Below are positions 34,396-36,850 of a DNA stretch of 39,107 nucleotides, piece by piece. Position 1 is the first letter of the stretch. The number at the start of each line of letters is the position of its first letter. Below the pieces are notes generated by a model that was not told where the DNA came from, ran no database searches, and saw nothing but the letters and a program-made list of their open reading frames with translations. Position numbers and translations under genes: made by a program. Source of the stretch: Ignavibacteriae bacterium HGW-Ignavibacteriae-3. GTDB lineage: Bacteria > Bacteroidota > Ignavibacteria > Ignavibacteriales > Melioribacteraceae. The stretch is taken from positions 1-39,107 of the forward strand of contig PGYS01000013.1 of the NCBI GenBank assembly GCA_002839795.1, written 5' to 3'.

Positions 34396-35001
34396 ATGCG
34401 CGCAATCAAAAAAATATTGAGCGAAAAAGAGTTACAGAAACGTTATGCCGAGTTTGAAAACGAAGCTGTCCCGCATATGGACGCTGTTTATAACTTCGCT
34501 TTACGAATGACAGGTGATGAAGATGATGCAGACGACCTGGTTCAGGAAACTTTTATGAAAGCATTCCGATTCTTCGATAAATTTGAAAGAGGCACTAATT
34601 GCAAAGCATGGTTGTTTAGAATACTGAAAAACTCCTTCATCAACGATTACAGAAAACAGAAAAAGGAGCCGGATAAAGTAGATTACGACGATATTCAAAA
34701 TTTCTACGAAAATATTAAATCGAATGAAGTTGATTCCAGACATTACGAAATGGACGCTTTCAGCAATCTGCTTGACGATGATATTTCGAAAGCTATAACA
34801 GAATTGCCTGAAGATTTTAGAACAGTCATTATACTTAATGACATAGAGGGATTTACATACGAAGAGATAGCAGATTTTGTTGATATACCCGTCGGAACTG
34901 TCAGGTCCAGGCTTCACCGGGCCAGAAAAATGCTGTACGTACAACTGTATGATTATGCCAAAGACAAGGGATTTATAAAAACCGGGAAATCAAAAACCTA
35001 A
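34396..35001 (+). CDS. ECF RNA polymerase sigma factor
   Basis: A 201-residue group-IV sigma-70 factor. Region 2 spans about 25-95 (YNFALRMTGDEDDADDLVQETFMKAF, KAWLFRILKN). An acidic linker follows, then region 4 at about 135-185 (LPEDFRTVIILNDIEGFTYEEIA, then VGTVRSRLHRARKML). It resembles RpoE/SigH-like ECF factors with cognate anti-sigma proteins. The stop overlaps the ATG of the small downstream ORF (TAATG), the usual arrangement for an anti-sigma partner. It may be autoregulated; TTTG-N19-TATCTACT upstream (34349-34379) is a poor housekeeping match. The regulon is not visible, although uspA 30 bases after the partner gene may be co-transcribed. Confidence 0.93.
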   Translation: MRAIKKILSEKELQKRYAEFENEAVPHMDAVYNFALRMTGDEDDADDLVQETFMKAFRFFDKFERGTNCKAWLFRILKNSFINDYRKQKKEPDKVDYDDIQNFYENIKSNEVDSRHYEMDAFSNLLDDDISKAITELPEDFRTVIILNDIEGFTYEEIADFVDIPVGTVRSRLHRARKMLYVQLYDYAKDKGFIKTGKSKT

Positions 35002-35219
35002 TGGAATTACAGGAAGAAATAACAGCTTATGTTGATAACCAGCTGCATGATCAATTAATCACTTTAAGGATGCGAGAGTTGATAGACCTGGATGCTGTTA
35101 TCCGTGATGAATTTTTGATCCAGAAGAAAGTTAAAATTTTGCTAAGCACAAGATTTGCGTGCGGATGTTCTTCAAAACGCCTTCAGAAGAAAATTCTATC
35201 CAATATCTCTCGGATGTGA
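35001..35219 (+). CDS. Very small putative anti-sigma factor
   Basis: A 72-residue protein translationally coupled to the ECF sigma gene (TAATG). The opening EEITAYVDNQLHDQ and the distribution VIRDEFLIQKKVKILLSTR ... LQKKILSNI resemble the anti-sigma domain of zinc-finger anti-sigma proteins (YVDG.L ... C..L...I). There is no membrane helix, so it would be a soluble anti-sigma. The usual H-x3-C-x2-C zinc motif is absent; instead there is a single histidine (H15) and a CxC pair near residues 52-54 (FACGCSSK). A redox or metal-responsive role is possible but speculative. Function rests mainly on position and size. Confidence 0.6.
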   Translation: MELQEEITAYVDNQLHDQLITLRMRELIDLDAVIRDEFLIQKKVKILLSTRFACGCSSKRLQKKILSNISRM

Positions 35220-35249: not shown

Positions 35250-35708
35250 ATGCTCAATTTAAAAAACATAATTGTTCCTACAGATTTCAGTAAAGTTTCC
35301 GCCACTGAATTCAAATATGCGAAAGATTTCGCTGAAAAAATGGGCGCAACAATTCATTTGATAAATGTTATGGAAAAAATTCCCCCGTTTCTTCAGTACG
35401 GGGCTACCAATTCCTCCGCTGCCGAAGAGGCTGAGAAGGCGGAACAAAAATGTAGGGAACGGCTTGAAGAAATTGCGGAAGAAATACGTGACGATTCTAT
35501 GTTGAATATAATCCCTGTTTTTCGCAAGGGGATTGATTATGAGGAAATAATCAGCTATTCGAAGGAAGTTAAAGGGGATATGATAATTATCGCCACTCAC
35601 GGCAGAACTGGCATATTTCATACATTACTTGGAAGTGTGGCTGAAAAGGTAATCCGCTATTCAAATTGCCCTGTTCTCGTAATATCCAATGAGGAGAATG
35701 AATCATAG
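35250..35708 (+). CDS. Universal stress protein (UspA family)
   Basis: A 152-residue single-domain Usp. N-terminal strand NIIVPTDFSKVSATEFKYA, then the ATP-binding signature G-x2-G-x9-GS in HGRTGIFHTLLGSVAEKVIR (about 117-136) and C-terminal NCPVLVIS. The ATP loop is intact, which places it in the nucleotide-binding UspFG/MJ0577-like subgroup. It begins 30 bases after the small anti-sigma gene and may share its transcript, linking it to the ECF regulon. No strong ribosome-binding site is seen. Confidence 0.9.
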   Translation: MLNLKNIIVPTDFSKVSATEFKYAKDFAEKMGATIHLINVMEKIPPFLQYGATNSSAAEEAEKAEQKCRERLEEIAEEIRDDSMLNIIPVFRKGIDYEEIISYSKEVKGDMIIIATHGRTGIFHTLLGSVAEKVIRYSNCPVLVISNEENES

Positions 35709-35713
35709 TCGGA

Positions 35714-35745
35714 TTTGATTATTTAGAATGAATTTTCTAAGTTTA
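35714..35745 (+). promoter_or_regulatory. Promoter of rpsU, Bacteroidota sigma-A type
   Basis: TTTG (35714-35717), 20-base spacer, TAAGTTTA (35738-35745). It is the best placed of the motifs in this window: transcription would start about 35752, giving a leader of about 33 bases that contains an extended SD. Confidence 0.6.
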
Positions 35746-35766
35746 GCCCTCAAAATTAAACAACAA

Positions 35767-35778
35767 TAAGGCAGGTGA
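35767..35778 (+). promoter_or_regulatory. Extended, interrupted Shine-Dalgarno of rpsU
   Basis: TAAGGCAGGTGA lies 6 bases before the TTG start. It is the full SD consensus TAAGGAGGTGA with an extra C, leaving AAGG and AGGTGA as two blocks able to pair with the 16S tail. It fixes the TTG as start and is stronger than most sites in the window. Confidence 0.6.
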
Positions 35779-35784
35779 ATTAAG

Positions 35785-35988
35785 TTGGTCGGAATCACAG
35801 TATCGGAGAACGAGAATATCGATAAAGCGCTGAAGCGTTTTAAGAAAAAATATGAGCGTTCAGGAGTACTTAAGGAATTCAAGAAAAGAACTTTCTTTGT
35901 AAAACCATCAGTTGAAAAACGATTGGAAGGCATTAAAGCCAAACGAAGAGCTTCGCGCGAGCAGTCACTGCGTGACAGAAGAGGTTAA
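35785..35988 (+). CDS. rpsU: Small ribosomal subunit protein bS21
   Basis: bS21, a basic 67-residue protein at the 30S platform near the 3' end of 16S rRNA, involved in initiation. Sequence landmarks: [33 protein letters not shown] and the Arg/Lys-rich tail ending [14 protein letters not shown]. Start is TTG at 35785 (LVGITVSE), supported by the strong SD 6 bases upstream. It has its own promoter and a bidirectional terminator after the stop, so it is monocistronic. In Flavobacterium, bS21 helps hide the anti-SD and its own mRNA has a strong SD, a form of autoregulation; the same may apply here. Confidence 0.95.
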
Positions 35989-35990
35989 TT

Positions 35991-36018
35991 AAAAAACCCG
36001 CCATTCGGCGGGTTTTTT
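35991..36018. terminator. Bidirectional terminator between rpsU and the LOG-family gene
   Basis: Six A residues, stem CCCGCC (35997-36002), loop ATTC, stem GGCGGG (36007-36012), then six T residues. The A and T runs also pair, and either strand has a T tract after the stem. It serves both the rpsU end (35988) and the minus-strand gene end (36020). Confidence 0.93.
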
Positions 36019-36019
36019 G

Positions 36020-36850
36020 TTATTTATAACTCTTATGATTATTTGCGTAGTGCTTTTTGAAATGCGAAGTGATTTTTTCAAACGCTTCGTCTACCGTACT
36101 GCAAAAATCAAATATTTTTAAATCTTCCTTACTTATCATACCATGTTCAATAAGAGCTTCAAAATTCATAACCTCGCGCCAGTATTTTTCGCCATAAACA
36201 ATGACCTTAAGGGGCTTTGAAAGCTTTCCCGTCTGTATTAATGTTATCACTTCCATCATTTCATCCAGAGTACCAAACCCACCGGGGAATGCGACGAGAG
36301 CTTTTGCAAGAAACGCAAACCAGAATTTTCTCATAAAAAAGTAATGAAATTCAAATGCAAGCGAGGGATCGACATATTTATTAACAAACTGTTCAAATGG
36401 AATGCTGATGTTCAATCCGATCGAGTGTCCATTGGCCAGACGGGCTCCTTTATTGGCTGCTTCCATTATTCCCGGACCCCCGCCGCTGCAGACAATAAAC
36501 CTTTTCTCATCGACTGGAAGGGACATTGACCATTTGGTAAGTCTCTTTGATAATTCAACTGCGTCTTCATAATACTGAGACATTTCAAGCTGCTTAAGAG
36601 CTACTTCAAAATTTTTCTTTGCCGCCGGGGTCTTTCCGTTTTTAAATTCATTTACTTTTTTCAATGCGTCTTTTTTACACAGGATGCGTGCGGAACCAAA
36701 AAATACAACGGTATCACGTATCTTATTCTTTTCGAATCTTGCCTGTGGTTCATAAAACTCGGATAATATTCTGATAGTGCGGGCATCCGTCGAATTTAAA
36801 AATTGTAAATTATTGTACGCCTTAGGCGGCGCCTTGTGTTCGATTTTCAT
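36020..36850 (-). CDS. LOG-family protein (TIGR00730, Rossmann fold)
   Basis: A 276-residue protein of the LOG family (often mis-annotated as lysine decarboxylase). Motifs: VVFFGSARILCKKDAL, SGGGPGIMEAANKGAR, and the signature PGGFGTLDEMMEV. Known LOG proteins cleave nucleoside 5'-monophosphates to the base and ribose 5-phosphate; plant and some bacterial members act on cytokinin nucleotides. The extended N-terminal part (about 1-45) and the insertion with KRLTKWSMSLPVDEKR resemble longer type-II-like bacterial members. The physiological substrate is unknown. GGTG lies before the ATG. It follows secG after two hairpins and probably has its own promoter. Confidence 0.88.
   Translation of the reverse strand: MKIEHKAPPKAYNNLQFLNSTDARTIRILSEFYEPQARFEKNKIRDTVVFFGSARILCKKDALKKVNEFKNGKTPAAKKNFEVALKQLEMSQYYEDAVELSKRLTKWSMSLPVDEKRFIVCSGGGPGIMEAANKGARLANGHSIGLNISIPFEQFVNKYVDPSLAFEFHYFFMRKFWFAFLAKALVAFPGGFGTLDEMMEVITLIQTGKLSKPLKVIVYGEKYWREVMNFEALIEHGMISKEDLKIFDFCSTVDEAFEKITSHFKKHYANNHKSYK

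Follow-up and report, generated by a model that had tools for sequence, protein, structure and literature searches.

The rpsU locus

The window (the whole 39,107-nt stretch of DNA that was analysed, contig PGYS01000013.1) includes an rpsU gene for ribosomal protein bS21, and the following features were assigned in and around it.

Ending at 35708: universal-stress-protein gene, upstream of the rpsU unit
35715–35743, + strand: promoter-like sequence TTGATT-N17-TAAGTT, inferred from a likeness seen by eye in the nearest relatives and not recovered by a sigma-70 scan
35768–35778, + strand: extended Shine-Dalgarno (SD) sequence AAGG-C-AGGTGA, with 10 pairs to the 16S rRNA tail and one extra base
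35772, + strand: extra base that interrupts the GGAGG core; relatives have C, T or A here, and none of the 63 one-base-insert matches in the order has G
35776–35778, + strand: in-frame TGA stop codon within the SD, two codons upstream of the TTG
35785–35787, + strand: TTG start codon of rpsU, 6 nt 3′ of the SD
35785–35988, + strand: rpsU, encoding bS21 of 67 aa (PF01165, 69.6 bits), with Arg at the Tyr54 position
35990–36019, + strand: intrinsic terminator, directly after rpsU

Given the position of the terminator, rpsU is probably monocistronic. An earlier note, made from the sequence alone, had placed a strong promoter ahead of the gene. The sigma-70 scan, which covered positions 35600–36060, found no promoter, but a block similar to TTGATT-N17-TAAGTT is present at a similar place in the nearest relatives when examined by eye; the strong promoter is thus supported in part, and transcription probably starts near 35750. 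The TTG start proposed in the same note is secure, as the in-frame TGA lies two codons upstream and bS21 contains no internal Met, and an ATG start elsewhere was ruled out for this gene on the same grounds. No Rfam family was matched by the leader in a search at the gathering threshold, and no notable structure was detected in it (z = +1.7 and +1.1).

Among the best 80 of 492 named records, those closest to the bS21 of the window were from Bacteroidetes and Ignavibacteriales MAGs, Stygiobacter and Melioribacter. Elsewhere in the window, a small ORF (35001–35219) adjoining the 3′ end of an ECF-type sigma gene encodes a Cys-Gly-Cys motif, has no Pfam match and is perhaps an anti-sigma factor.

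Pairing of the rpsU leader with the 16S rRNA tail

The sequence TAAGGCAGGTGA at 35767–35778 is made up of AAGG (35768–35771), the added C (35772) and AGGTGA (35773–35778) and, as the earlier note had stated, represents a near-complete complement of the anti-SD ahead of a weak start codon. The 16S rRNA 3′ end, which that note had named for inspection, is GGATCACCTCCTTTCT in the genome containing the window. This canonical tail was identical in 13 other genomes of the order, these 14 being the ones with an exact match to the search pattern among 30 compared (the other 16 were unmatched). As the tail is canonical, the extra C in the rpsU leader has no pairing partner, and a compensating 16S change facing it was ruled out for this genome and the 13 others. 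The SD is thus interrupted, as claimed, and the duplex predicted by RNAduplex consists of 4 bp, a bulged C and 6 bp, at -13.2 kcal/mol. Pairing as good as this was found for 0.17% of 40,000 random genomic 22-mers, and AAGGNAGGTGA occurs twice in 730,456 bases of the genome (both strands), one occurrence being that in rpsU.

Leaders were compared in a census of 195 loci, 169 from Ignavibacteria and 26 from Chlorobia, and 182 unique leaders remained once 13 duplicates had been removed. The Ignavibacteria loci comprise 89 from the genome set, drawn from 193 genomes with a match (30 the best-scoring, the others selected to widen the sampling), and 80 named records, the best of 492, that are without a family label. 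GGTGA was present 4–7 nt upstream of the start in 139 of the 182 unique leaders, and pairing reached -13 kcal/mol or better in 137. The remaining 45 paired more weakly, and 30 of them begin with TTG, including all eight from family f4. Broken forms of the SD had medians of about -15 kcal/mol (ranges -18.7 to -11.2), and contiguous forms a median of -18.3 kcal/mol (range -21.3 to -17.1).

One record in the census, labelled Desulfobulbaceae (L115), encodes an Ignavibacteria-type bS21 and is perhaps a misbinned contig. A further genome of the order, G125, carries two bS21 genes, L016 at C5 and a second copy at C9:69901–70059.

Start codons of rpsU

The start codon was TTG in 146, GTG in 30 and ATG in six of the 182 unique leaders, hence 176 are non-ATG. 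At the conserved site itself the codons were TTG (146), GTG (30), ATG (5) and GTA (1), the GTA, in L070, not being a start; an ATG lies 6 nt upstream of it and this leader was counted as ATG. A non-ATG codon at the site with no in-frame ATG up to the upstream stop was found in 169 leaders, and in the seven other non-ATG leaders an upstream in-frame ATG makes the start ambiguous. All 26 Chlorobia loci are non-ATG (25 TTG and one GTG). In contrast, rplI begins with ATG in 30/30 and rpsF in 28/30 genomes of the order; rpsR was not used as a control as its N-terminus is too variable for the start to be placed. Of the 148 isolated first starts in the genome containing the window, 123 are ATG.

In 41 loci from 41 other phylum genomes, the codon at the family site was ATG in 33, GTG in two and TTG in one, and the remaining five have GTG or TTG 3 or 12 nt upstream of that site. 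The start codon was also compared with the residue of bS21 at the Tyr54 position, which is Arg in the window, in all 26 Chlorobia loci and in all Ignavibacteria loci but one (168/169, the exception being a gap). All 23 loci with Tyr54 among the 41 start with ATG, whereas Arg54 loci are mostly non-ATG in Ignavibacteria and Chlorobia (the 176 of 182 leaders above) and divided in other families (9/17 ATG, 8/17 non-ATG). The association of Tyr54 with ATG tracks a few deep lineages and does not represent independent events.

Interruption of the SD core across the order and class

The genomes of the order (n=164) were searched with a pattern of AAGG, 1–3 free bases, GGTGA, 3–8 bases and a start codon followed by Val/Ile-Gly; 78 genomes gave 84 matches. 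Of these, 63 have one extra base, 14 a mismatch and seven other forms, and the contiguous sequence AAGGAGGTGA was not found among them. The extra base in the 63 was C (31), T (21) or A (11) and never G. The absence of G is telling because a G would restore the unbroken core, which the rpsF gene of the same genome uses. The start codon was TTG in 57, GTG in 23 and ATG in four of the 84 matches. The matches are rows and not independent events, and five genomes of family f1 have two rows, so that some are off-target. In f1, 65 of 79 genomes were matched; the 14 unmatched, counted by eye, include two with deviating leaders (G066 and G106) and incomplete genomes. The comparison of relatives that the earlier note had called for therefore finds the leader conserved, with both the interruption and the weak start maintained across the order.

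When the same pattern was applied to 294 genomes of the class, 103 rows lay outside the order and 43 of these were contiguous (13 in f5, nine in f14, seven in f21, six in f7, four in f20, three in f19 and one in f11), indicating that the search detects the contiguous form where it is present. Families f6, f8 and f19 contain the form AAGGGAGGTGA, and in 13 rows of f10 AAGG-A-AGGTGA is combined with TTG-Val-Gly. In f2 the inserted form is mostly absent and AAG-H-GAGGTGA, which the search pattern does not cover and which could represent either a bulge or a mismatch, or other forms were found, likewise without GGAGG.

Among unique leaders, GGAGG was found in 0/30 from f1–f3 and in 19/58 from other Ignavibacteria families. 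It was also found in 5/68 leaders of named records, one of which, the contiguous leader L144 from an Ignavibacteriales record, is an exception. In Chlorobia, GGAGG was present in 8/8 leaders outside f33 and in 0/18 within f33, which has GGGGG instead. The state of the core is fairly constant in each family, contiguous in f5, f7 and f14 and broken in f1, f3 and f10.

A non-ATG start often accompanies the contiguous AAGGAGGTGA; it was seen in 12/13 unique leaders (10 TTG, two GTG) and in 34 of the 43 contiguous rows outside the order, the other nine being ATG, and the break is therefore unnecessary for a weak start. Of the two features, the non-AUG start is thus more widespread than the broken core.

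SD use in the genome and in rpsF

SD use was assessed on a sample covering 22% of the genome, using the 148 of 397 long ORFs that have an isolated first start. Pairing at -6 kcal/mol or better was found in 45/148 SD windows as against 22/148 mock windows, and an excess of SD over mock windows was seen at all cut-offs between -4 and -12. For the class Ignavibacteria, a value of 32% is given in Table 1 of PMC10783764, cited here on SD use. The sequence AAGGAGGT precedes a start codon at 14 sites in the whole genome, against 38 for the reversed pattern, but this control differs in composition and the comparison was given no weight.

The SD of rpsU is stronger than those of all 148 ORFs (the strongest is -12.9 kcal/mol), a set that rpsF lies outside. 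When the best candidate start was taken for each ORF of at least 80 aa, a list for which rpsU is too short, 6/644 reached -13 kcal/mol, and ssb (-13.5 kcal/mol) and a few others exceeded rpsU. The strongest of the 644 was rpsF at -16.7 kcal/mol, stronger than rpsU and with an unbroken core, which rules out rpsU as the only gene with a strong SD.

The rpsF gene is the first of a stretch that also contains rpsR. Its leader includes CCRNAGGGA in 30/30 genomes (L184–L213; e.g. L209), continuous with the SD as CCRNAGGGAGG in 26, and this sequence resembles the known S6:S18 binding motif. No Rfam match was obtained for the rpsF leader in the four loci scanned.

Possible function of the rpsU leader

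Ribosomes specialised for one mRNA have, to our knowledge, rarely been proven. The rpsU gene of Flavobacterium has been presented as such a case, as in F. johnsoniae the rpsU mRNA is translated better, via an extended SD, by ribosomes that lack bS21, and SD pairing of about -13 kcal/mol is associated with autoregulation of rpsU (McNutt et al. 2023, PMC9976891). In the Flavobacterium loop, bS21, bS18 and bS6 hide the anti-SD, with Tyr54 of bS21 forming part of the sequestration.

A tentative reading is that the rpsU leader is also a conserved translational control site in this order, made up of an extended SD, a GGAGG core that is kept broken and a non-AUG start. The leader can pair with the 16S 3′ tail over about 10 nt, and the one-base break of GGAGG leaves two arms, AAGG and AGGTGA, each weak alone. 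Because two such short arms could not hold by themselves, initiation from them and a UUG codon would require the 3′ tail to be entirely free, and translation of rpsU would be favoured on 30S subunits without bS21 and damped once bS21 had bound, with UUG keeping output low. In this reading the leader would respond to the level of bS21, and the break and the UUG would serve to make it more selective and not just to reduce output.

A control site is favoured by the absence of the contiguous form from the 84 matches in the order, compared with 43/103 outside it, by an extra base that is never G (0/63) and by non-ATG starts in 176/182 leaders where rplI (30/30) and rpsF (28/30) use ATG. The analogous feedback on Flavobacterium rpsU via its extended SD was shown experimentally (PMC9976891). 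Against it, bS21 lacks Tyr54 and SDs are more widely used, so there is no sign that bS21 hides the anti-SD here, and rpsF pairs more strongly. In other families TTG is commonly found with contiguous SDs and also with weak ones, which argues against a tight link between the long SD, its break and the weak start, and ATG does occur (4/84 matches in the order and 9/43 contiguous rows outside). In E. coli, bS21 is described as aiding SD pairing (PMC10931766), which would reverse the sign of the effect unless a long SD bypasses the need.

About as likely as a bS21-responsive control site is a plain setting of expression without feedback, in which UUG lowers output, the long SD restores just enough of it and the rate of bS21 synthesis is fixed; the break would then only avoid an over-stable helix, and differences between families would reflect descent. 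The weaker median pairing of broken forms, the wider use of SDs in the genome and the fairly constant core state of each family are consistent with a plain setting, as is the finding that SDs are stronger in TTG leaders than in the rest (p = 0.007, a statistic that ignores kinship). However, two observations are left unaccounted for, namely an extra base that varies without ever being G and the retention of ATG by rplI and rpsF in the same genomes.

A broader form of the control-site reading is rather doubtful. In families without Tyr54 (those with it being taken as Bacteroidia), rpsU would carry a distinct element consisting of a long SD and UUG or GUG, in the order with a two-armed SD whose core is actively kept broken, selecting 30S subunits with a fully free tail and reporting occupancy by bS21 without a Tyr54 pocket.

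It is improbable that the Flavobacterium loop proper, in which the SD of rpsU senses release of an anti-SD hidden by bS21, bS18 and bS6, operates in this genome. The earlier note had drawn this analogy, and it holds in so far as rpsU is a bS21 gene with an intact anti-SD, extended complementarity to the 16S tail and pairing that just reaches about -13 kcal/mol, although the value of -13.2 is borderline and RNAduplex is not the program used in PMC9976891. The SD of rpsF, at the head of the stretch containing rpsR, is also the strongest among the sampled ORFs, and the loop has been suggested for Chlorobia, which also lack Tyr54 and in which strong rpsU SDs were reported for all members examined (PMC9976891). 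It breaks down at position 54, which is Arg, at the wider use of SDs and at the minimum pairing energy, which belongs to rpsF; furthermore, the helix is interrupted and the start is UUG, while the 23 sampled Tyr54-type loci are all ATG. The leader may work like that of Flavobacterium, yet it was not classed as a member because Tyr54, SD scarcity and rpsU as the strongest SD all fail here.

Sensing of initiation stringency is known from other translation genes with non-AUG starts. The E. coli rpsT gene (bS20) is, like rpsU here, a monocistronic ribosomal protein gene with a UUG start, through which autoregulation has been proposed but is unproven, and unlike rpsU it is not described as having an extended broken SD in the account in PMC10931766. 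By analogy, rpsU could sense stringency (IF3 or IF1) via its weak start with the SD merely positioning the ribosome, but this is very unlikely as, while the non-ATG starts of 176/182 leaders and rpsT would fit, the conserved break is not explained.

Relationship to other rpsU leaders

No description of a broken SD or a non-AUG start in rpsU was found in a literature search of titles and abstract openings, a scope outside which most subscription papers and all preprints lie. The main text of PMC9976891 mentions neither Ignavibacteria nor a UUG or other non-AUG start nor a bulge, and the rpsU leader is thus extended to a class that this text does not name, with two features absent from it, the widespread non-AUG start and the conserved break in the SD helix. 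Judged from sequence comparison, the leader in this order may represent an undescribed form of translational control of rpsU, for which conservation is observed and feedback is presumed, and the broken long SD and weak start suggest a conserved setting of the amount of bS21.

The rpsU leaders of Chlorobia resemble those of Ignavibacteria in their strong SD, TTG (25/26) or GTG (1/26) start and Arg at the Tyr54 position (26/26). They differ in that 18/26 unique leaders, all from f33, have the G.U wobble form AAGGGGGTGA and 8/26 have an unbroken GGAGG, and none has an inserted base. The natural broken, wobble and contiguous forms of sister families provide a comparison set for relating SD geometry to the choice of mRNA. 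Interrupted extended SDs (AAAGGAWGTGA and AAAGTGGGTGA) were also seen in rpsU leaders of the other phylum genomes but with an ATG start, at L317, L324, L325 and L337 in f39 and at L303 and L304 in f28.
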